A stretch of DNA of 64,000 bases from Flavobacteriales bacterium (lineage in GTDB: Bacteria; Bacteroidota; Bacteroidia; Flavobacteriales_D; Parvicellaceae): contig JAGYKU010000001.1 in assembly GCA_018401455.1 (NCBI GenBank), forward strand, positions 1 to 64,000, written 5' to 3'. Below are positions 3,982 to 57,454 of this stretch, in pieces. Numbering within the stretch: position 1 is the stretch's first letter; each line of letters begins with the position of its first letter. The notes below the pieces were generated by a model. It was not told the origin of the DNA. It saw only the letters and a list, made by a program, of their open reading frames with translations, and did not search any database. The position numbers and the translations under genes were made by a program.

Positions 3982-4979
3982 TGGAATTGAACAACAGACA
4001 TAGAAGATTAAGAACGAGTCCTTTTGAGAGAGATATTGTAAGAGAAAACCTCTATTTCTGTAAATGACTTTATTGTACCTCTTTTTGTTGTAGAAGGAGA
4101 AAATATCAAAGAGGAAATCGCCTCCATGCCGAATTATTTTCGTTTTAGTTTCTTGACGAACTCACCAAAGAAATCGAAACCATTGTTGCTTTGGGTTTAA
4201 AATCGGTTTTGTATTCGTAAAAGTTCCGAAAAACTCAAAGACAACGAAGGAACTGGAAGCCTAAATCCCAATGGATTGATGCAAAGAACCGTAAAGCATA
4301 TCAAATATTGCACCACAACTGGTTGTAATGACAGATGTGGCTTTGGATCCTTATTCATCTTTTTGGTCACGATGGTGTGATTGAAAACGAAGTAGTGAAC
4401 GACAAAACAGTTGCTATATTATCAAAATGGCATTGTCTCAATGCAGAAGCAGGAGCAGATTTGTAGCGCCTCCGACATGATGGACGGTAGAGTAGGGAGC
4501 GATAAGAACACAACTCGGATAGCGAAATTTTACCCATGTTGGAATCATGAGTTATAGCGCCAAATATGCTTCTTCATTTCATTTGGGCCCGTTTAGAGAT
4601 GCTTTGATCTGCCCAGTGTTAGGATCATTATAAAAGACAAAAAAAAAACCTATCAAAATGGATCCCGGGCTAACAGGCTGGAAGCCATCAAAGAAGTACT
4701 TTCCGACATTGACGAAGGAGGCAGACATTGTGATGGTGAAACCCGGAATGGCTTATTTAGATATCGTGAGAGATATTGCCAATCAAGAAGTTCCGATTTC
4801 TGTGTATCAGGAAAACTATAAATGATAAATCCGCAGTGGTTCAAGGATGGTTGGAAGAAAAAGAAGTGGTCTTGGAAAGTATTATTGCTTTCAAAAGAGC
4901 AGGCGCCAAATTGATTGCGAGTTATTTTGCAAAAGATGTAGCGAAGTGGTTGAGGGAGGATTTTAAAGCGACATTATAA
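3981..4979 (+). pseudogene. hemB: delta-aminolevulinic acid dehydratase, many frameshifts
   Basis: Frame-joined translation gives an almost full HemB: RRLRTSPFERDIVRE near the start, [66 protein letters not shown] (with the Schiff-base Lys), and the end REDFKATL. HemB condenses two aminolevulinates to porphobilinogen, the substrate of the hemC product. At least six indels disrupt it between 4070 and 4830, while the last 150 bases are clean. Loss of hemB would abolish heme synthesis, yet hemC, hemD and hemE are intact, so assembly error deserves first consideration. Confidence 0.85.
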
Positions 4980-41341: not shown

Positions 41342-41457
41342 AAGTTGAAAGTTATATCTAACTCAAGTATTCTTATTAAAAGTATGTTACCGCTTGTAAC
41401 AAAACTTTTCATTTGTTCATTTTTTTTTGTAATATTGAAGTATTAAAACACAAAAAA

Positions 41458-43260
41458 ATGAAGAATTCTAATTTCATTACAAAGACTAAAGTCTTATTTT
41501 TAACAGGTATTTTTGGATTCACAGGACTTGTTTCAGCTCAAAATCAAGATCTACCTATTGGTTTAACACCAAATGAAAAAAGCATTTTAGAAAATGGTTT
41601 ACACCAATACACAAACCAAAATAGAGGGATTACAACACCTCCTCCAGGTCCACTTAGAACAATGGCTGAGTGGGAGGAAATCCAAACACTAGTTATCACT
41701 TGGACAGGTTTTCAATCTATACTTGCTCAAATTGTAGATCATGCTCAAGAAGAATGTGAAGTCTTGATTAGTTGTTCAGACTCTAATGCTGTAAAAACGT
41801 ATCTTACTGGTCAAGGAGTTCCTCATACGAATGTAAGTTATATTCAAGTTCCTTTTAATAGTATTTGGGTGAGAGATTACGGTGCACATACTGTTTACAA
41901 AAACGATGTAGAAGACATTTATATGGTGGACTGGATATACAACAGACCTAGACCAGCAGACGATGCAATGCCAGATGCACAAGGTGTATTTAAGAATATT
42001 CCTGTTTATGCCACCACTCAAGCACCAAACGACTTAGTGAATACTGGAGGAAACTGGATGGTAGATGGCGCAGGAACCGCTTTCGCTTCTGATTTGATTA
42101 TAGAAGAAAATGAAGCAGGAAATCCTTATGGCGTTACTACAAAAACAGAAGCACAAATAGACCAAATTGTAGAAGATTTCATGGGAATAGATAGATTTAT
42201 CAAAATGGTTTCGCTTCCTTATGATGATATTCATCACATTGATATGCACATGAAGTTATTGGATGAAGAAACGCTTTTGGTAGGAGAATTTCCAGATGGA
42301 ATTTCTGACGGACCCCAAATTGAGGCAAACATCCAATATGTATTGAGCAATTTCAACTCTGTTTATGGTACGCCTTATAAAATTATTCGTATTCCAATGC
42401 CGCCCAATGCTGCTGGAACATCATATCCAGGTCAACCTTATGGAAATGCTTATTACAGAACGTATGCAAATAATGTATTTGTAAACAAAACAGTGATTGT
42501 TCCGAGTTACAGAGAAGATTACGATACCATTGCACAAAGAATTTTAGCAGAATCATTACCGGGTTACAATATTAAGTACATTGATGTAGATAATCAAGGT
42601 GCAAATCTAATTTCCAATGGTGGCGCTATTCATTGTATCACTAATGCCATTGGTGTTTCCAACCCTTTATTGATAAGACATCAATCTTTGGTGGACACAT
42701 ATGACGAAACCAATCCTTATGAAGTAAATGCTTTTATAAAACATGCAAGTGGTATTCAGAACGCTACTTTGTTTTACAGTACAAACGATGGCACAAGTTA
42801 TAATTCATTACCTATGACAGCATCTGGAAATGATATTTTTAACGCTTCAATTCCAGCGCAAGTGGCGGGAACAGAAGTGCTTTATTACATTCATGCAACT
42901 GCAAATAGTGGCAAAGAACAAGTAAGACCTATCGTAGCACCTGAAGGATATTTTCATTTTAAAGTTTTAGGAAACAGTTCTGTTGGAGTTGAAGAAATAA
43001 ATCAAAATGCAAACATTAATATTTTTCCAAATCCTGCAAAAGCCATTACTTGTATTGATATAACACCCTATGTGAATGAAAAAATAAAAGTAACCATGCA
43101 AAATTTATTAGGTCAAACCGCTGAAGTTTTGTTTGAAGGTGAAGTATCAGGAAACAACCAAAAAGTGTTTTTTGACGCTAGAAATTATACTTCTGGAACC
43201 TACCTAATCACTGTTTCATCACCCAATGGATTTTTGGTGCAAAAAGTTTTAGTGCATTAG
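41458..43260 (+). CDS. secreted agmatine deiminase/peptidyl-arginine deiminase-like enzyme, T9SS substrate
   Basis: Start ATG 41458 gives 600 residues; the 15 codons upstream are not a signal. The signal peptide is followed by the PAD_porph domain: PLRTMAEWEEIQTLVITWTG, SIWVRDYGAHTVY, GGNWMVDGAGTAFAS, DIHHIDMHMKLLDEETLLVG and NGGAIHCITNAIG, whose Cys is the expected catalytic nucleophile. After an Ig-like domain, the last 80 residues form a type A T9SS sorting domain (INIFPNPAKA to TYLITVSSPNGFLVQKVLV). The enzyme would convert agmatine or peptidyl-arginine to citrulline-type products outside the cell. Confidence 0.9.
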   Translation: MKNSNFITKTKVLFLTGIFGFTGLVSAQNQDLPIGLTPNEKSILENGLHQYTNQNRGITTPPPGPLRTMAEWEEIQTLVITWTGFQSILAQIVDHAQEECEVLISCSDSNAVKTYLTGQGVPHTNVSYIQVPFNSIWVRDYGAHTVYKNDVEDIYMVDWIYNRPRPADDAMPDAQGVFKNIPVYATTQAPNDLVNTGGNWMVDGAGTAFASDLIIEENEAGNPYGVTTKTEAQIDQIVEDFMGIDRFIKMVSLPYDDIHHIDMHMKLLDEETLLVGEFPDGISDGPQIEANIQYVLSNFNSVYGTPYKIIRIPMPPNAAGTSYPGQPYGNAYYRTYANNVFVNKTVIVPSYREDYDTIAQRILAESLPGYNIKYIDVDNQGANLISNGGAIHCITNAIGVSNPLLIRHQSLVDTYDETNPYEVNAFIKHASGIQNATLFYSTNDGTSYNSLPMTASGNDIFNASIPAQVAGTEVLYYIHATANSGKEQVRPIVAPEGYFHFKVLGNSSVGVEEINQNANINIFPNPAKAITCIDITPYVNEKIKVTMQNLLGQTAEVLFEGEVSGNNQKVFFDARNYTSGTYLITVSSPNGFLVQKVLVH

Positions 43261-43272
43261 TATAATTAACTC

Positions 43273-44166
43273 TTACAAAACACCCAATATCTTTGCTGTG
43301 AAAGCACCGATATTGGTTACTTCATTGTTGGCTTTCTTTACCTGAATCATGTACAACTGGCTTTTAATCCATGCAGGAGCATGAAGTTGTAACGCTTTTT
43401 CTGCTTGGTCTTTTCTCAAGCCGAATTTATTCACTAGTCGTTCAAACATTTCGGTATCTTCGTCTTTAAAATCAAATTGAACTTGATAAGGCGTATGGAC
43501 AATGTGAAACTCTAGTTTGGTAAACTTTCTGCCCGTTTTGATGGGTTTGTATTCAAACTTAATATCAGTGAGTTTGTTGATTTCTTTGTGTGCTATTTTC
43601 AAAACATATTTATCAAATGCAGACCATTTTTCGTACTGTTCAATCTTCTTTTTAGGATCATAAAGGCTCAACCTTTCTTTTAAGTCTAAAACACTCAATC
43701 TCAAAATTCCAGTGTTTTTGAATTGACTTAACATCTCGTACATTCTTTTAGAAAACTTAGATTTAAGAATAAGTGCCAATTCGAGTTGATAGGTAGTAAA
43801 ATTTTGTTTTAACTCAAAAAGATAGGGACGCAATTTGGGTTCAATTCCCAATTCTATAATTCCATGTCCTTTAATATACTCAGCGGAACTTACGAGTGTT
43901 GTTTGCAGTATATTCCCATTGTCTTTATGAATCGTAATGATTTTTGACATCATTCTTTCAATGGCGTTTTTGTAATCTACGTAACTGTTGTCAACGCCAG
44001 TTTTCTGTGCTAATTCGTTTACAGAAATAAAATAGTACTTTTCGGGTTCGTCTCCTTTTCTAATTTGAGACATCATCATGTACATTATGTTTTTCTCCAA
44101 AGGTGAAAAATCATAGTTTGCTTCTGTTATCGCATTATTTTGAAAAATTGTCTTTAACTCTCCCAT
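43273..44166 (-). CDS. RepB/Rep_3-family replication initiator
   Basis: A 297-residue protein of the plasmid initiator superfamily (two winged helices): FSPLEKNIMYMMMSQIRKGD, VNELAQKTGVDNSYVDYKNA, LKSKFSKRMYEMLSQFKNTG, LSVLDLKERLSLYDPKKKIE and KEINKLTDIKFEYKPIKTGR are characteristic. It would bind iterons and open the origin. About 1.2 kb of matching iterons lie directly upstream. The flanking genes are chromosomal in type, so this is either an integrated plasmid origin or a chromosomal copy with its own role. Confidence 0.88.
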   Translation of the reverse strand: MGELKTIFQNNAITEANYDFSPLEKNIMYMMMSQIRKGDEPEKYYFISVNELAQKTGVDNSYVDYKNAIERMMSKIITIHKDNGNILQTTLVSSAEYIKGHGIIELGIEPKLRPYLFELKQNFTTYQLELALILKSKFSKRMYEMLSQFKNTGILRLSVLDLKERLSLYDPKKKIEQYEKWSAFDKYVLKIAHKEINKLTDIKFEYKPIKTGRKFTKLEFHIVHTPYQVQFDFKDEDTEMFERLVNKFGLRKDQAEKALQLHAPAWIKSQLYMIQVKKANNEVTNIGAFTAKILGVL

Positions 44167-49685: not shown

Positions 49686-49812
49686 TTGAAAACAAACTAT
49701 TTTATAATATTTAAAGCGAAATTTTTACATTTCACTTATAAATAAATAAAACTCAACTAAACTAAACATTTTTTTTGTTTCTTTGTTAGATAGATGTATT
49801 AGAAAAAATTAT

Positions 49813-50685
49813 ATGTCAAGTTATTCAATCAAAGATTTAGAAATATTATCAGGTGTCAAGGCTCATACCATAAGAATATGGGAGCAAAGATATAATTTAC
49901 TTATTCCAAATAGAACTGAGACCAATATTAGATCTTATGATGATGAGCAACTCAAAAAATTATTGAGAGCCAATCTACTTTACAACAATGGATTTAAAAT
50001 AAGTAAAATCGCAGCTTTAAGTGACCAGCAACTCATCAACGAATTAGAAGGGCTAAAAGTCAACACCAACTCTGTAGAGGTAGTTTTAGAATCTATGACA
50101 ATTGCAATGATAGACATGAATGAATCACAATTTGATAACATTCTAAAAAACAAAATCAAAGAACACGGATTCGACTATGTAATGCAGACTTATATTTATC
50201 CTTTTTTTGAAAGAATAGGGGTACTTTGGATTACTAATGTGATACAGCCCGCTCAAGAACACTTTATTTCCAATTTATTAAGGCAAAAGATAATTACTGC
50301 AATTAATGAAATCGGACCTTGTGAAAAAGAGAGTGCTCCTATTTGTTTTGCATACCTCCATGAAGAAGAAATGCACGAATTAGGTTTGCTCTATTACACC
50401 TACCATTTAAAGTTAAAAGGATATAATGTTATTTATTTAGGACAAATGCTGCCTTATCAAGATTTATTAAAATCCAAAAAAGTACATCAACCTGATGCTA
50501 TTCTTACCTCCTTTGTAAAGCCAATGGACGAGCAATGGTTTGACGAATACGTTCAAAATATACTGAATGATTTTCCAAATACCAAAATATTCACTTGCGG
50601 ATATTTTGCATCGAAGATTTCTATCGAAAATAAGAACTTGTTTAAAATCCCTAGTGTCAGTTATTTACAAGAAATAATTTCTTAA
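49813..50685 (+). CDS. carH: MerR-family B12-binding regulator, CarH-like photoreceptor
   Basis: A 290-residue regulator from ATG 49813; the ten codons upstream are not MerR-like. Residues 1-70 are the MerR winged helix (YSIKDLEILSGVKAHTIRIW, EQRYNLLIPNRTETNIR). The middle helical bundle holds W139-x9-E149-H150, the Wx9EH motif that caps the adenosyl group in CarH. The C-terminal Rossmann domain has ExHxxG with H188 as candidate lower cobalt ligand. In known CarH, adenosylcobalamin makes a DNA-bound tetramer in the dark and light breaks it. It sits directly upstream of the carotenoid operon and paired operators. Confidence 0.9.
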   Translation: MSSYSIKDLEILSGVKAHTIRIWEQRYNLLIPNRTETNIRSYDDEQLKKLLRANLLYNNGFKISKIAALSDQQLINELEGLKVNTNSVEVVLESMTIAMIDMNESQFDNILKNKIKEHGFDYVMQTYIYPFFERIGVLWITNVIQPAQEHFISNLLRQKIITAINEIGPCEKESAPICFAYLHEEEMHELGLLYYTYHLKLKGYNVIYLGQMLPYQDLLKSKKVHQPDAILTSFVKPMDEQWFDEYVQNILNDFPNTKIFTCGYFASKISIENKNLFKIPSVSYLQEIIS

Positions 50686-50694
50686 AAAACAATA

Positions 50695-50782
50695 TTGTTT
50701 AACATTTTCGCAAAATAATTAAACAAAAATCATTGTCATGTAAAATACTTTGTTTAACTTTGTCCTATAAACATTAAACAAA
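50695..50782. promoter_or_regulatory. two matching operator dyads, TTGTTTAA-N16-TTAAACAA
   Basis: Half-sites at 50695-50702 and 50719-50726 form dyad 1; those at 50750-50757 and 50774-50781 form dyad 2. Both have exactly 16 bases between arms and the dyads are 55 bases apart. Dyad 2 overlaps the -7 box and start region of the ECF-crt promoter. This geometry suits a tetrameric MerR-type repressor such as the product of the adjacent carH-like gene. Confidence 0.75.
50733..50762 (+). promoter_or_regulatory. promoter of the ECF-crt operon
   Basis: TTG at 50733-50735, a 19-base spacer, and TAACTTTG at 50755-50762 match the Bacteroidota primary-sigma consensus. The ATG of the sigma gene is 27 bases after the -7 box. 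Operator half-site TTGTTTAA (50750-50757) overlaps the box, consistent with repression by steric block. Confidence 0.7.
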
Positions 50783-50788
50783 ATTGTT

Positions 50789-51289
50789 ATGACGGTTTTA
50801 GAATTTAATTATCAAGTTAGTACTTTCCAGGAAAAACTAACTAACTTTGCACTGAGTTTAACAAATGACAGAGAAGATGCAAAAGACCTTTTTCAAGAAA
50901 CAGTTCTGAAGGCATTGAAGTACAGAGATAAATTTGTTTCGCAGACGAATCTTAAAGCATGGCTTTATACTATTATGCGAAATACTTTTATCAACGACTA
51001 CAGAAGAAAGAAAATGGCACAGACAATTTTGGATCATTCACCAAATGAATATGTCATGAATAGCATTCCTGCTTTATCGGAATCTCCATCATCAGAGTTA
51101 GCAACCAAAGAAATTCAAAATGTTATTTCTGATTTAGAAGATGAGTATAGAATTCCTTTTATGAAGTATGTGGAAGGATTCAAGTACAAAGAAATTTCTG
51201 ATGAATTGAATCTGCCTATTGGAACGGTAAAAAGTAGAATTTTTATTGCCAGAAAAAAATTAATGTCTCAATTAGAGGATTACAGATAG
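50789..51289 (+). CDS. ECF-type RNA polymerase sigma factor
   Basis: A 166-residue sigma-70-family protein with region 2 (FALSLTNDREDAKDLFQETV, LKAWLYTIMRNTFINDYRRK) and region 4 (LEDEYRIPFMKYVEGFKYKE, ISDELNLPIGTVKSRIFIAR). There is no anti-sigma gene beside it; control is probably through the CarH-like operator. It is the first gene of the carotenoid operon, five bases before crtI, and may amplify expression of other light-induced genes. Confidence 0.93.
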   Translation: MTVLEFNYQVSTFQEKLTNFALSLTNDREDAKDLFQETVLKALKYRDKFVSQTNLKAWLYTIMRNTFINDYRRKKMAQTILDHSPNEYVMNSIPALSESPSSELATKEIQNVISDLEDEYRIPFMKYVEGFKYKEISDELNLPIGTVKSRIFIARKKLMSQLEDYR

Positions 51290-51293
51290 TATA

Positions 51294-52778
51294 ATGAGAA
51301 AGAAAGTAAATATAATAGGCGCTGGTTATTCAGGATTAGCTGCAGCATGTTATCTTGCAAAAGAAGGTGCAGATGTTACCATTTTTGAAAAGAACAATTC
51401 CATTGGCGGAAGAAGTCGTCAGTTTGAACAAGACGGATTTATTTTTGACATGGGTCCTTCTTGGTATTGGATGCCAGACGTTTTTGATACTTTTTTTGCA
51501 GATTTTGGCAAGAAAACATCAGACTATTATCATTTACATAGATTGTCACCTTCTTACAGAGTGGTTTTTGGAGAAAATGACGTAGTTGATTTACCTTCCA
51601 ATTTAGACGAATTGTATGAAACTTTCGAAAGGATAGAAAAAGGTAGTGCTTCAAAACTGAAAATATTTCTTGATGAAGCGAGTTACAAATACGATGTAGG
51701 AATCAATGAATTTGTTCAAAAACCTAGCAAATCTATAATGGAATTTGCAAGTCTTAAAGTATTCAAAGGTGCTTTAAGATTACAATTGTTCAAATCATTT
51801 TCAAAATACGTTAGGCAATATTTTACCAATCCAAAACTCATTCAGATATTAGAATTCCCAGTTTTGTTTTTGGGTGCAAAACCACAAAACATTCCTGCGC
51901 TTTATAGTTTGATGAATTATGCAGATATTGTTGGTGGAACTTGGTATCCAATGGGCGGAATGTTCAAAGTGATTGAAGCAATGCATGCATTGGCAACAGA
52001 ATTAGGCGTAAAAGTCAATATAAATCATGCCGTAGAAGAAATTGTAATTGAAAAAGGCATTACCAAAGGAATAAAAGCCAACGGTGCTTTTTATCCTTCA
52101 GATTCGGTTTTGGCTTCAGCCGATTATCATTTTGTGGAGCAAAATCTTATTCCAAAAGAATATAGAAAATACGATGAAGCTTATTGGGACAAAAGAGTAA
52201 TGGCGCCCTCAAGTTTGCTTTTTTATCTAGGAATAGACAAAAAACTGAAGAACTTATTGCATCACAATTTGTTTTTTGACAAAGATTTCGATCAACATGC
52301 AGTAGAAATATACGATACACCAGAATGGCCATCAGACCCGCTCTTTTATGCTTGTGTTCCAAGTATCACAGACGATTCTGTTGCTCCTGAAGGTAAGGAA
52401 AACTTATTCCTTTTGATGCCAATAGCGCCTGGTTTGAACGATGATGAAACCTTACGTGAAAAGTATTACCACGTGATTATGGATCGCCTTGAAAAATTGA
52501 CAGATCAAGAAATTAGAAGTCACGTCATTTATAAAAAATCTTATGCTGTAAATGATTTTATAGCCGATTACAACGCATTCAAAGGAAATGCATATGGATT
52601 GGCAAACACATTGAAACAAACAGCAGTTTTGAAACCTGCTATGTATAATAGCAAAATTAAAAATTTATTTTTTGCAGGACAATTAACGGTGCCTGGTCCA
52701 GGTGTCCCTCCATCTTTAATTTCTGGTAAAATAGCAGCGATTGAATCTATTAAATATTTTAAAACTACTACAAAATGA
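51294..52778 (+). CDS. crtI: phytoene desaturase
   Basis: A 494-residue FAD-dependent desaturase turning phytoene into lycopene. The N-terminal dinucleotide fold VNIIGAGYSGLAAACYLAKE, then GGRSRQFEQDGFIFDMGPSW, and the C-terminal carotenoid-oxidoreductase signature NLFFAGQLTVPGPGVPPSLI are all typical of bacterial CrtI. The stop overlaps the crtB start by four bases. The paralogue at 54168 lacks the MGPSWYWMPDVF form and is assigned to the later desaturation. Confidence 0.95.
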   Translation: MRKKVNIIGAGYSGLAAACYLAKEGADVTIFEKNNSIGGRSRQFEQDGFIFDMGPSWYWMPDVFDTFFADFGKKTSDYYHLHRLSPSYRVVFGENDVVDLPSNLDELYETFERIEKGSASKLKIFLDEASYKYDVGINEFVQKPSKSIMEFASLKVFKGALRLQLFKSFSKYVRQYFTNPKLIQILEFPVLFLGAKPQNIPALYSLMNYADIVGGTWYPMGGMFKVIEAMHALATELGVKVNINHAVEEIVIEKGITKGIKANGAFYPSDSVLASADYHFVEQNLIPKEYRKYDEAYWDKRVMAPSSLLFYLGIDKKLKNLLHHNLFFDKDFDQHAVEIYDTPEWPSDPLFYACVPSITDDSVAPEGKENLFLLMPIAPGLNDDETLREKYYHVIMDRLEKLTDQEIRSHVIYKKSYAVNDFIADYNAFKGNAYGLANTLKQTAVLKPAMYNSKIKNLFFAGQLTVPGPGVPPSLISGKIAAIESIKYFKTTTK

Positions 52779-53611
52779 AACAGTTATACGATGAAATTTC
52801 CATTAAGTCGAGTGCTTTAATTACCAAAAAGTACAGTACTTCTTTTTCTATTGGAATTAAGTTTTTGGATAAAAAACTACACGACCCAATTTATGCCATC
52901 TATGGATTTGTAAGAGTAGCTGACGAAATTGTTGACACCTTTCATGGATTCGATAAAAAAACATTACTATCCGAATTTAGAGCAGACACTTATAAGGCGA
53001 TAGCTCAAAAAATAAGTACAAATCCAGTCTTGAACGCTTACCAATGGGTGGTAAATAAATACAATATCCCAATGGAATTGACAGATACTTTCTTAGACAG
53101 TATGGCGATGGATTTAGAAGATATCACTTACGATAAAGAAACGTATGAAAAATACATTTTGGGTTCTGCAGAAGTGGTTGGCTTGATGTGTTTGAAAGTT
53201 TTCCTAGACGGAGATGAGAAAAAGTACGAAGAATTAAAGCCTTTTGCAATGAAACTGGGTTCTGCTTTTCAAAAAATTAACTTCTTGAGAGATCTTAAAG
53301 ATGATTACAAGGAATTGGGAAGAACTTATTTCCCAGATACAGATTTTACACAATTTAATGAAGAACTTAAAAAAGAATTAGAAGCAGATATTGCAGCAGA
53401 TTTTTATCAAGGTTATTTAGGTATTAAACAATTACCAAAATCAGCAAGATTTGGAGTCTATGTAGCTTATATTTATTACTCACGATTACTCAAAAAGATA
53501 CAATCTACAAAAGCAACAGATATACTTGAAACAAGAATCAGAATTCCCAACAGAAAAAAGTATGCATTGTTTGTGGGGTCTTATGTGAAGCATAGACTAA
53601 ATGCTATTTAG
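52775..53611 (+). CDS. crtB: phytoene synthase
   Basis: A 278-residue prenyl-transferring enzyme that joins two geranylgeranyl diphosphates head to head. Mg2+-binding aspartate motifs are DEIVD (in FVRVADEIVDTFHG) and DLKDD (in NFLRDLKDDYKELGRTYFP), with YSTSFSIGIKFL at the N-terminus. Translationally coupled to crtI by an ATGA overlap. Confidence 0.95.
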   Translation: MKQLYDEISIKSSALITKKYSTSFSIGIKFLDKKLHDPIYAIYGFVRVADEIVDTFHGFDKKTLLSEFRADTYKAIAQKISTNPVLNAYQWVVNKYNIPMELTDTFLDSMAMDLEDITYDKETYEKYILGSAEVVGLMCLKVFLDGDEKKYEELKPFAMKLGSAFQKINFLRDLKDDYKELGRTYFPDTDFTQFNEELKKELEADIAADFYQGYLGIKQLPKSARFGVYVAYIYYSRLLKKIQSTKATDILETRIRIPNRKKYALFVGSYVKHRLNAI

Positions 53612-53690: not shown

Positions 53691-54155
53691 ATGAGCGTAT
53701 TCGTATTAGAACAACAACAGTTTATCAATAACATTACTTTAGAAAAAGCGTGGGATTTTTTTTCATCTCCAGCCAATCTCAAAGTGATAACACCTGATTT
53801 TATGGGGTTTGATATTATTTCCAAATTGCACTCTGATAAGATGTATGCTGGTCAGATAATTAGATATAAAGTTAAGCCAGTTGCAGGAATTCCTATGCAG
53901 TGGACTACAGAAATAACACAAGTTCAAGAACCCAATTTCTTTATTGACGAACAAAGACAAGGACCCTACAAAATGTGGCATCACCAACATCATTTTGAAG
54001 AAAAAGACGGAGGTGTTTTGATGACAGATATCATTCACTATTGGCCTCCATTTGGATTTTTGGGAAATATAGCCAATAGTATTTTGATAAAAAAGCAATT
54101 AAAAGGTATCTTTGACTATCGAAAAAAGAAAGTGGAAGAATTGTTTAATAAATAA
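53691..54155 (+). CDS. SRPBCC-family protein in the carotenoid operon
   Basis: A 154-residue START-like/SRPBCC hydrophobic-ligand protein: EKAWDFFSSPANLKVITPDF, GQIIRYKVKPVAGIPMQWTT, and DGGVLMTDIIHYWPPFGFLG are the family's usual strands. Homologues are frequent in Bacteroidota carotenoid clusters, where no activity has been firmly assigned to my knowledge. Binding or carrying a carotenoid intermediate is a reasonable inference. Confidence 0.88.
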   Translation: MSVFVLEQQQFINNITLEKAWDFFSSPANLKVITPDFMGFDIISKLHSDKMYAGQIIRYKVKPVAGIPMQWTTEITQVQEPNFFIDEQRQGPYKMWHHQHHFEEKDGGVLMTDIIHYWPPFGFLGNIANSILIKKQLKGIFDYRKKKVEELFNK

Positions 54156-54167
54156 AACCTTTGTCTT

Positions 54168-55628
54168 TTGAAAACCGCTATAATTGTTGGGTCTGGAATT
54201 GCAGGAATAGCTTCTTCTATAAGGTTAGCCGTGAAAGGATATGAGGTAAAAGTTTTCGAAAAAAACACCTATGCTGGCGGTAAGCTTTCTGTTTTTGAAC
54301 AAGATGGATATAGATTTGATGCTGGCCCTTCCCTATTCACGATGCCTCAGTTTGTTGAAGAACTTTTCGTATTGGCAGGAAAAAAACCTAAGGATTATTT
54401 TGAGTACATAAAACACGATACTGCTTGTCATTACTTTTGGAATGATGGAACTACATTTTTTGCACCTAGCAAATCATCAGAATTAGCAAAAAAAGCACAA
54501 GAAGTTTTTGGAGTTCCAGAAGAAAGTGTGCTTAAAAAACTAAAGAAAGCAGCTTTCATCAATGATAAAGTCTCAGGCTTGTTTTTAGAACAAAGTCTTC
54601 ACAAAATCAAAGGATTCTTGAATAAGGAAACTTTAGTAGGTATAGCCAATATGCCAAGATTAGATCTCAATAAAAGTTTACATCAGGTAAATGAAAAAGA
54701 TTTTAATCATCCTAAAATGGTTCAGATTTTTGATCGTTTTGCTACTTATAACGGCTCAAGTCCTTTTCAAACTCCAGGAATTATGGGGGTGATTCCACAT
54801 TATGAACACAATGTAGGGACTTTTTTCCCAAAAAAAGGAATGCACAGTATCACGACAAGTTTGGTAAAATTGGCAGAGGATTTAGGCGTTGCATTTCATT
54901 ATGATGAAATGGTAGAACAAATCAACTATGAAGGCAAGAAAGTGAAAGGTGTTCAAACTACAAAAGGAACTTATACAGCAGATTTACTCGTGAGCAATAT
55001 GGATGTTTATTATACCTATCACAAGTTGCTTAAGAATTTCAAAATTCCACACAAAACACTTAATAGAGAACGTTCTTCGAGCGCTTTGATTTTTTATTGG
55101 GGTATTCAAAAGAAATTTGAAAATTTAGACCTACACAATATCTTTTTTGCTGATGACTATAAAGCCGAGTTTGAAGCGATTTTTAAAACCAAACAAATTT
55201 ATAACGACCCAACCGTTTATATTCACATATCTTCTAAGTTACTTCCCTCCGATGCACCAGAAAATTGTGAAAATTGGTTCGTGATGATCAATACACCGCC
55301 CGAAGGAAATATAGATTGGGATGTTTACATTGAAATGGCACGTGAAAATATTATTAAAAAACTTAGTGCTATTCTGAAAGAAGATATTTCTAAATTAATA
55401 CAATCGGAATCGGTGTTAGAGCCTAGAACCATAGAAAGTAAAACAATGTCCTACCAAGGTTCTTTATACGGTACCAGTAGTAATTCTAAATTTTCTGCTT
55501 TTTTAAGACATCCAAATTTTAGTAAAAAATTAAAAAATCTTTATTTTGTGGGAGGAAGTGCTCACCCAGGAGGAGGGATTCCTCTTTGTTTGTTGAGCGC
55601 AAAAATTGTAGCAGTCAATGTGGAGTAA
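54168..55628 (+). CDS. crtD: CrtD-like carotenoid 3,4-desaturase
   Basis: A 486-residue FAD oxidoreductase of the CrtI family starting at TTG 54168 (KTAIIVGSGIAGIASSIRLA); no ATG is available before the FAD fold. GGKLSVFEQDGYRFDAGPSL and the C-terminal NLYFVGGSAHPGGGIPLCLL segment are present; the latter (GGSAHPGGGIP) is the form seen in hydroxycarotenoid desaturases. With the cruF-like gene it would introduce the 3',4' double bond at the acyclic end of a gamma-carotene derivative. Its stop lies inside the next gene's start (11-base overlap). Confidence 0.85.
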   Translation: MKTAIIVGSGIAGIASSIRLAVKGYEVKVFEKNTYAGGKLSVFEQDGYRFDAGPSLFTMPQFVEELFVLAGKKPKDYFEYIKHDTACHYFWNDGTTFFAPSKSSELAKKAQEVFGVPEESVLKKLKKAAFINDKVSGLFLEQSLHKIKGFLNKETLVGIANMPRLDLNKSLHQVNEKDFNHPKMVQIFDRFATYNGSSPFQTPGIMGVIPHYEHNVGTFFPKKGMHSITTSLVKLAEDLGVAFHYDEMVEQINYEGKKVKGVQTTKGTYTADLLVSNMDVYYTYHKLLKNFKIPHKTLNRERSSSALIFYWGIQKKFENLDLHNIFFADDYKAEFEAIFKTKQIYNDPTVYIHISSKLLPSDAPENCENWFVMINTPPEGNIDWDVYIEMARENIIKKLSAILKEDISKLIQSESVLEPRTIESKTMSYQGSLYGTSSNSKFSAFLRHPNFSKKLKNLYFVGGSAHPGGGIPLCLLSAKIVAVNVE

Positions 55629-56262
55629 GATTAAAACATATCAATGGCATATTTCGGTATTGTTGCTGCTCATTTTTAATGGAGTAGGAATTTTTGGCGT
55701 ACTTTTAAGTGAGGATCCTATTTCGTTTTTGGAACTCACACCTTTGAATTTAATGATTAGCGCTGCAATTTTGTATTACAACCATACACAATGGAGTAAA
55801 TCTCAAATTTTGGTTTTGATTTCTGTGGCAATTCTAGGTTTTTTAGTCGAAGTATTGGGTGTTCAAACAGGAAAAGTTTTTGGGGCATATTTTTATGAAG
55901 AAACTTTGGGCTGGAAATTATGGGATGTTTCGCTAATCATAGGTTTAAATTGGGCTTTACTCACCTATTTTGCAGTTTATACGCTTTCGTTTAAGATTCA
56001 ATCTGTTTTTTTAAAAGCCTTTCTTGCTTCAATTTTACTTGTTGGGTTGGATATTTTGATAGAACCCATAGCTATTCAATATGATTTTTGGGAATGGGAA
56101 AGTGAAACTATTCCGATTCAGAACTTCATTGCTTGGTGGTTTATTGCTCTGGTTTTTAGTTTAGGAATTGCTTATACTCAAAAAGAAAGTACCAACAAAA
56201 TTGCTCCAGTTTTGTTTTTAATACAAGTTTTATTTTTTGGAATTCTTAATTTTGCACAATGA
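55618..56262 (+). CDS. cruF: CruF-like carotenoid 1',2'-hydratase
   Basis: A 214-residue membrane protein with about seven helices. The segments FLVEVLGVQTGKVFGAYFYE, WDVSLIIGLNWALLTYFAVY and DILIEPIAIQYDFWEWESET match the CruF/DUF422 family, which adds water to the psi end group. It overlaps both neighbours (crtD-like by 11 and crtZ by 4 bases), so all are one operon. Activity assignment is by family and context. Confidence 0.85.
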   Translation: MWSKIKTYQWHISVLLLLIFNGVGIFGVLLSEDPISFLELTPLNLMISAAILYYNHTQWSKSQILVLISVAILGFLVEVLGVQTGKVFGAYFYEETLGWKLWDVSLIIGLNWALLTYFAVYTLSFKIQSVFLKAFLASILLVGLDILIEPIAIQYDFWEWESETIPIQNFIAWWFIALVFSLGIAYTQKESTNKIAPVLFLIQVLFFGILNFAQ

Positions 56263-56753
56263 ACATTTTGATATACATATTTATAGTGATAGCCACCTTC
56301 TTCTTTATGGAGTTTATGGCTTGGTTTACCCACAAATACATCATGCACGGATTGATGTGGTATTTTCACAAAGATCACCATCAAGCAGAACCTGGTTTTT
56401 TTGAGAAAAACGATGTTTTCTTTTTGATTTTTGCCATTCCAAGTTGGCTTTGTATTATGTTGGGAATGATGAATGCTAATTATATTTCGGTTTCTATAGG
56501 AATTGGGATTGCGATTTATGGGGTTTGTTATTTCTTAGTACATGATGTTTTTATTCATCAAAGATTCAAGTGGTTACGCAATACCAATAACACCTATTTT
56601 ATGGCTTTAAGAAAAGCTCATAAAATTCATCATAAACATTTAGGAAAAGAAGAAGGAGAATGCTTTGGAATGTTGGTAGTGCCACCTAAATACTACAAAG
56701 AAGCCTTCAAAGCACTATCTGCGAAAGCGTCTCAAAAGAAATCTTCTAAATAA
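56259..56753 (+). CDS. crtZ: beta-carotene hydroxylase
   Basis: A 164-residue di-iron membrane hydroxylase that puts 3-hydroxyl groups on beta ionone rings. Histidine clusters HKYIMH, HKDHHQAE, HDVFIHQR and AHKIHHKH are all present, matching the fatty-acid-hydroxylase/CrtZ pattern. The ATG overlaps the cruF-like stop (ATGA) and the stop overlaps the cyclase ATG by one base. Confidence 0.93.
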   Translation: MNILIYIFIVIATFFFMEFMAWFTHKYIMHGLMWYFHKDHHQAEPGFFEKNDVFFLIFAIPSWLCIMLGMMNANYISVSIGIGIAIYGVCYFLVHDVFIHQRFKWLRNTNNTYFMALRKAHKIHHKHLGKEEGECFGMLVVPPKYYKEAFKALSAKASQKKSSK

Positions 56754-57454
56754 TGCAGTACTTATATCTCTGGTTAGATTTATTTACGTTGCTTGGTCCT
56801 TTGGCATTGAGTTTCGATAAGAAGGTTGCGTTTTACAAAAATTGGAAACCACTTTTTTGGGGAACCATCGTTATGATGGCTGTTTTTATTCCTTGGGACA
56901 TCCTTTTTACAATTGAAGGAGTTTGGTCATTCAATGATGCCTATTTATGTGGTATTAGAATTTTTCATCTGCCGATAGAAGAATGGTTGTTTTTTATTGT
57001 TGTGCCTTATGCTTGTATTTTTATTTACGAATGTGTAAAGGCATATTTTAGTGATGTTTTGAAGAAAAATGGTAATGGATTTTTACTAATATTAGGTGTT
57101 TTCATCCTTATTATAGGTCTTTACAATTACGATAAAGCTTACACATTCGTTAATTTTGTGGGTGCAGCAATTGTTATATTTATTGCGCTTTGGATTTACA
57201 GAGGGAAATCTTTAGGCTATTTTGTAATGAGTTTTCTCATCGCTTTAGTTCCCTTTTTGTTGGTCAATGGAGTGCTCACTGGAACAGGAATAGAAGATCA
57301 AATCGTATGGTATAATTCTAACGATATCCTAAACATCAGAATTCTCACCATCCCCATCGAAGACACAATGTATTGTCTTTTTATGCTTTTGCTTACCTTT
57401 TTGGTGTATGAAAGGGTGAAAAAGGAAAAAGATTTAAAATTTGTAGCAAATTAA
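56753..57454 (+). CDS. crtYcd: lycopene cyclase, fused CrtYc-CrtYd type
   Basis: A 233-residue membrane protein made of two related halves. Each contains the heterodimeric-cyclase motif PIE(E/D): LPIEEWLFFIVVPYACIFIY in the first half, IPIEDTMYCLFMLLLTFLVY in the second. Fused CrtYcd cyclases are typical of Bacteroidota. It would close one end of lycopene to a beta ring. It is the last gene of the operon, facing ttcA convergently 12 bases away. Confidence 0.93.
   Translation: MQYLYLWLDLFTLLGPLALSFDKKVAFYKNWKPLFWGTIVMMAVFIPWDILFTIEGVWSFNDAYLCGIRIFHLPIEEWLFFIVVPYACIFIYECVKAYFSDVLKKNGNGFLLILGVFILIIGLYNYDKAYTFVNFVGAAIVIFIALWIYRGKSLGYFVMSFLIALVPFLLVNGVLTGTGIEDQIVWYNSNDILNIRILTIPIEDTMYCLFMLLLTFLVYERVKKEKDLKFVAN

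Follow-up and report, generated by a model that had tools for sequence, protein, structure and literature searches.

A CarH-family regulator of Bacteroidota with candidate inverted operators in front of carotenoid, rhodopsin and light-protection genes

Well-studied CarH proteins are repressors. The known operators of the CarH/LitR family consist of three to four tandem 11-bp direct repeats, nnnnTnnACAn (PMC9304148), and the SignatureFinder motif set for the family comprises GxxW, EH, GxxH and GxxxP (PMC11796333). In TtCarH from T. thermophilus, the H132A variant is unable to monomerise, yet CtMerR and the photocobilins, which are without this histidine, are light-responsive (PMC11796333). In Streptomyces, the B12-dependent MerR-type sensor LitR is encoded beside an ECF sigma factor gene and crt genes, and LitR and sigma-LitS, which transcribes crtE, form an already described B12 sensor-to-sigma cascade (PMC12705666). 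An ECF sigma factor is also part of light-induced carotenogenesis in Myxococcus, where CarQ, of the CarQRS system, is held by an anti-sigma factor and released by singlet oxygen (PMC8156234).

The window analysed here, a stretch of 64,000 nucleotides from a Flavobacteriales bacterium, carries on its forward strand a carH gene (49813..50685) followed by a carotenoid operon whose first gene encodes an ECF-type sigma factor (50789..51289; Pfam Sigma70_r2 and r4_2). Our main reading, which we hold with a probability of roughly 0.7, is that the regulator represents a Bacteroidota form of the CarH/LitR adenosylcobalamin (AdoCbl) photoreceptor-repressor, placed at the centre of a light regulon. It is like the repressors of T. 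thermophilus, B. megaterium, M. xanthus and Cystobacter in domain order, fold, W/E/H/H residues and carotenoid-gene control, and its half-sites share their core TnnACA, here TAAACA but inverted. It differs from them in being about 20% identical, in having no equivalent of His132, in a larger apparent regulon and in its operators, which are inverted, with a 24-bp offset and often in two copies. Downstream of the sigma gene, and also on the forward strand, lie a crtI/crtD-type bifunctional phytoene desaturase/3,4-desaturase (51294..52778; NCBIfam NF058655 above its cut-off), the phytoene synthase gene crtB (52775..53611; Pfam SQS_PSY), a gene for a small protein (53691..54155), the 1-hydroxycarotenoid 3,4-desaturase gene crtD (54168..55628; NCBIfam NF042421 above its cut-off), a cruF-like carotenoid hydratase (55618..56262; Pfam Caroten_synth), a crtZ-like hydroxylase (56259..56753), recognised by position and His motifs, with no Pfam match but conserved in crt loci, and a CarR-type lycopene cyclase (56753..57454; Pfam Lycopene_cyc and TIGR03462). 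The small protein, which we presume to be SRPBCC-like, has no Pfam or NCBIfam match and has tblastn homologues in the crt loci L002, L006, L009 and L011. Unlike in Myxococcus, no anti-sigma gene lies beside the sigma gene.

From the perspective of its architecture, the 290-residue regulator has the domain order of the CarH/LitR family, with an N-terminal MerR-type DNA-binding domain (residues 4-71), a helical bundle (85-170) and a Rossmann B12-binding domain (177-290). Its start, ATG at 49813, was picked by homologue alignment, an alternative TTG at 49783 being possible. Pfam MerR_1 and B12-binding_2 score above their cut-offs and B12-binding below (26.8 vs 32.1). The CarH equivalog NF052513 is its best NCBIfam match, but with 80.6 bits against a cut-off of 400, so that the protein is to be regarded as a distant CarH homologue outside this equivalog. 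Searches with phmmer also lead to TtCarH, which is the best PDB match to the AlphaFold model (pLDDT 91; Foldseek E 4.8e-14), with a VIA Z score of 18.2 and an rmsd of 2.6 over about 197 residues. The Z score is about 18 for CtMerR and the photocobilins, B12 light sensors likewise without His132 (PMC11796333), although photocobilins carry other partner domains, unlike the regulator.

The residues given in the preliminary description as diagnostic of AdoCbl photoreceptors, W139-x9-E149-H150 and ExHxxG with H188 (E186-x-H188-x-x-G191), lie exactly where it placed them, and profile, fold and residue conservation bear out its designation of the protein as CarH-like. In an alignment of 136 rows, made up of Bacteroidota sequences plus TtCarH, E149 is invariant (100%), W139 is found in 133 rows (98%), H150 in 121 (89%) and H188 in 122 (90%); all four are kept in 117 of the 135 Bacteroidota sequences, including every one of the 75 linked to crt or sigma genes. 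The SignatureFinder motifs GxxW, EH and GxxxP are also present, and GxxH reads ExxH (E185). In the same alignment, His132 of TtCarH has no counterpart in the regulator, where the position is Ile140; elsewhere it is mostly Q, L, S or I, and it is His in three rows, TtCarH being one. The bis-His photoproduct of TtCarH is thus ruled out for this protein. The loss does not by itself exclude light sensing, judging by the known light-responsive proteins that are also without this histidine. As regards the cofactor, the window's genome encodes a PduO-type adenosyltransferase, so the host can make AdoCbl from imported corrinoid.

It is nevertheless conceivable, if rather unlikely, that the regulator binds its operators but senses something other than light via AdoCbl, either because it is B12-blind or because it needs a partner photoreceptor. 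The missing His132 and the missing glycine of GxxH both fit such a protein, as do related loci (L017-L074) that are naturally without H150 and H188, the precedent of PmlR2 and the class II LitR that needs a LOV protein (PMC9758184). Weighing against it are the retention of the four key residues, above all in the crt- or sigma-linked sequences, and the light-related nature of the genes behind the candidate operators.

These candidate operators are two unstranded dyads in the intergenic stretch that runs from the stop codon of carH (50685) to the ATG of sigma (50789). The preliminary description had reported both, together with a promoter TTG-N19-TAACTTTG, and a sequence scan recovers all three: dyad 1, upstream, at 50695..50726 and dyad 2, downstream, at 50750..50781, each an exact TTGTTTAA-N16-TTAAACAA, and the promoter at 50733-50762 on the forward strand, with a putative -33 element TTG (50733..50735) 19 bp before a putative -7 element TAACTTTG (50755..50762). 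The -7 box falls inside dyad 2, which also overlaps the expected transcription start and is conserved across the phylum; dyad 1 is conserved in L100, L101 and L104. No further site in the window comes within fewer than three mismatches of the dyad (shuffles give 4.8 sites at up to three), and the exact 32-bp form has one more copy in the whole 3.06-Mb genome. The conserved core, TGTTTAAY-N14-RTTAAACA (30 bp), is narrower than the full 8+16+8 pattern. The -7 box is found at fixed offsets inside or touching the downstream dyad, and about 44% of exact dyads have TAAYTTT built into a half-site.

With this arrangement, we infer a scheme of B12 binding, light response, direct DNA binding and repression by an oligomer. 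In the dark, oligomers of CarH loaded with AdoCbl would occupy the inverted half-sites TGTTTAAY, which lie 24 bp apart, with one pair of DNA-binding domains per dyad and two dyads at the main operon. Bound CarH would sit over the -7 box and the transcription start, so that the operon, from sigma through crtI and crtB to the lycopene cyclase gene, would stay switched off. Light would break the Co-C bond, the oligomer would dissociate or change, and the operon, sigma included, would be transcribed. The regulon controlled in this way would extend to carotenoids, isoprenoid precursors, rhodopsin, pterin cofactor genes, SOUL, peroxidase and fasciclin proteins. The most likely polarity is binding in the dark, in the AdoCbl form, and release by light, since dyad 2 covers the -7 box and start and the well-studied CarH proteins repress; the light-released repression suggested in the preliminary description is consistent with this position of dyad 2. 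A tetramer would match the four half-sites of two dyads, although the spacings between two dyads, which range from 34 to 73 bp, and their weak phasing do not decide the matter: helical phasing gives P=0.0016 over lineages and 0.2 on distinct spacings, and is only suggestive.

The opposite polarity, in which CarH is a light-activated activator, or a dual regulator, with dyad 1 as the activating site, seems unlikely. In S. coelicolor, LitR is reported to promote the transcription of litS under light (PMC12705666), and dyad 1 lies upstream of the promoter, as an activating site would. Dyad 2, however, covers the -7 box, single distal dyads such as that of the fasciclin gene described below do likewise, and the frequent presence of TAAYTTT within a half-site also speaks for repression.

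The preliminary description proposed to look for the dyads in other Bacteroidota crt operons, and there the pattern TGTTTAAY-N14-RTTAAACA does recur upstream of orthologous operons across Bacteroidota. A dyad is present in 72 of 75 crt- or sigma-linked loci, scored with up to two mismatches in loci of about 10 kb, so that some two-mismatch matches are due to chance; many dyads are scored with one to three mismatches in AT-rich DNA. Two other genomes of the same genus, with CarH proteins 60% and 54% identical, keep both dyads, whose starts are 53 and 55 bp apart, and in another genus of the family two dyads persist despite a carH-sigma distance of 761 bp. Over 187 Bacteroidota upstream regions, 101 pairs of TGTTTA and TAAACA have an offset of 24 bp and 13 pairs one of 25 bp, each other offset being seen at most 12 times, whereas 11-bp direct repeats amount to only two pairs. 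The tandem direct-repeat operator of known CarH proteins was accordingly rejected for this regulator in favour of inverted repeats with a 24-bp offset. Although unconstrained in the search pattern, as the whole spacer was, spacer positions 10-11 and 20-21 show at most 1% G or 1% C among 122 exact dyads.

The association with CarH, rather than with the sigma factor, comes from co-occurrence. Among the 39 genomes of the family, CarH is encoded in 31 and the sigma ortholog in four; 27 of the 31 CarH-bearing genomes are without sigma, and most of these keep the dyads, which then stand in front of carH-crtI, so that CarH is the probable owner of the dyad. In genomes at least 90% complete, the dyad is found in 17 of 30 with CarH and 0 of 20 without (Fisher P 1.3e-5), and the same contrast is seen within four genera (g8, g12, g32 and g56). 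The subgroup of CarH homologues without H150 and H188 is never crt-linked and has a dyad in one of 13 loci. Comparative genomics thus strongly supports the dyads as operators of CarH, as the preliminary description had proposed. That they belong instead to another factor, or are parts of the ECF sigma factor's own promoter, is very improbable: a dyad does stand directly in front of the sigma gene, but the dyads persist before carH-crtI where sigma is missing, they are absent from the CarH-free genomes, and a palindrome suits a dimeric regulator, not a sigma factor. Chance palindromes in AT-rich DNA are already refuted as an explanation, since, frequent as three-mismatch matches are in the window, the 30-bp pattern has 91 sites genome-wide in the 39 family genomes against zero for the reversed-pattern control, and dyads are conserved where proteins are 54-60% identical.

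Several variations on this arrangement were observed. In mainly Saprospiraceae-like homologues (L017, L021-L024, L030, L034, L053, L055, L059, L064, L066, L074 and L078), both B12-contact histidines are lost (H150 to N or S, H188 to Q), and these may be natural B12-blind forms. Each genome of genus g2 (G001-G004) has two CarH paralogues and 5-6 exact dyads, a setting in which the regulon could be split between them. In Pontibacter-type loci (L028, L032, L049 and L069), a degenerate dyad near 4480-4490 ends about 9 bp before crtZ and is likely a second operator of the same cluster.

The sigma factor calls for separate consideration, because the preliminary description saw in an operon headed by a sigma gene a two-tier light switch of Bacteroidota. 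This part of the proposal is weaker, and the design is not general, given the 27 of 31 CarH-bearing family genomes without sigma, the probable single sigma-crt transcript and the precedent of LitR-LitS. Only 4 bp separate sigma from crtI, with one promoter in front of both, so that sigma and the crt genes are probably co-transcribed and sigma does not have to act on crt as a second tier; this gap and the -33/-7 promoter before sigma also argue against a separate sigma-driven crt promoter. Here lies a difference from Streptomyces, as the housekeeping-type -33/-7 promoter seems to yield one transcript for sigma and crt in the window, and sigma is missing from most relatives. Since dyads precede carH-crtI where sigma is missing, placing sigma first is one option among lineages. 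With photolyase and SOUL as candidates in the window's genus, other sigma targets were not found, and a common sigma motif could not be derived because SOUL is absent from that genus; its photolyase genes have no dyad upstream. Distal dyads, counted per genome by hand, number, for example, 4 in G002, 5 in G004, 5 in G012, 4 in G018, 5 in G020, 1 in G022 and 0 in G030 and G031, all sigma-less, and 0 in G026 and G028 and 3 in G036, which bear sigma. A tendency to more distal dyads in sigma-less genomes would fit a relay role for sigma, although phylogeny confounds this comparison.

In the window's genome, the sole distal exact dyad is found 19 bp upstream of a gene for a fasciclin-domain protein and, in the manner of dyad 2, overlaps a TAACTTTT box. 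Elsewhere, distal dyads precede genes for rhodopsin (L172, L179, L242 and L257), PTPS (L169, L173, L176, L183, L195, L237 and L251), GTP cyclohydrolase I (FolE; L244), DXS (L243), HMG-CoA reductase (L187, L191 and L250), phytoene synthase (L236 and L239), SOUL and DUF429 proteins (L168, L170, L178, L192 and L198), glutathione peroxidase (L188, L190, L193 and L197) and fasciclin proteins (L164, L175, L241 and L255), and, once each, for a photolyase-related protein (L174) and for an ABA4-like protein (L181). Further targets, namely TonB receptors, an ABC ATPase and secreted proteins, have no evident theme. Representatives of these targets were identified by Pfam and the remainder by similarity of the protein start, and for divergent gene pairs the controlled side is ambiguous.

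Rhodopsin was also approached from the gene, by gathering rhodopsin genes order-wide by Pfam and scanning upstream of them, which avoids a motif-led choice. Without the four loci first found through their dyad, 42 of 67 rhodopsin genes have a dyad at up to two mismatches in 14 positions and 14 have an exact one; shuffled half-sites on all 71 give a mean of 1.5 (max 7) and 0.02, respectively. As the rhodopsin genes of several genera (g28, g42, g43 and g49) are without a dyad, the link appears common and not universal. Only two CarH-free genomes have rhodopsin, too few for a control, and one of them has a near-dyad. Taken over the order, the dyads before pigment, rhodopsin and light-protection genes suggest one light-controlled gene set.

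The regulator thus belongs to the CarH family, with operators of altered geometry and what is apparently a broad regulon. The observations of the preliminary description stand, while it overlooked the inversion relative to known CarH operators, the loss of His132 and the distal regulon. In the open-licence literature, no paper was found on such an operator geometry or on a broad CarH regulon in Bacteroidota, and the dyad-marked light gene set is apparently undescribed so far. We consider it an even chance that CarH of Bacteroidota is the master regulator of a light regulon that spans the order and is marked by a new inverted operator, that it sets light-dependent rhodopsin expression, and that photoheterotrophy and photoprotection in flavobacteria-like bacteria are thereby gated by the supply of B12. 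If true, a regulator and an operator would be named for the rhodopsin and photoprotection genes of a large heterotroph group, vitamin B12 availability would be tied to the light response of these bacteria, the control of rhodopsin genes would become experimentally testable, and the new CarH operator geometry would be usable in optogenetics.

Some minor observations concern individual loci and the surroundings of carH. In genus g16 of the order (e.g., L264-L272), one side of most rhodopsin dyads carries the variant half-site TGTTGAA. At L096:6372-7783, the fasciclin gene that follows the distal dyad shows up as two ORFs of repeated fasciclin domains; a frameshift, a collapsed assembly or a tandem duplication may be the cause. 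Some 6 kb ahead of carH, the window contains a Rep_3-type replication initiator gene (43273-44166, reverse strand; Pfam Rep3_N and Rep3_C), unusual if the contig is chromosomal and possibly an integrated plasmid remnant. Finally, the forward-strand gene at 41413-43257 encodes a secreted protein that resembles peptidyl-arginine deiminase and bears a type IX secretion tail.
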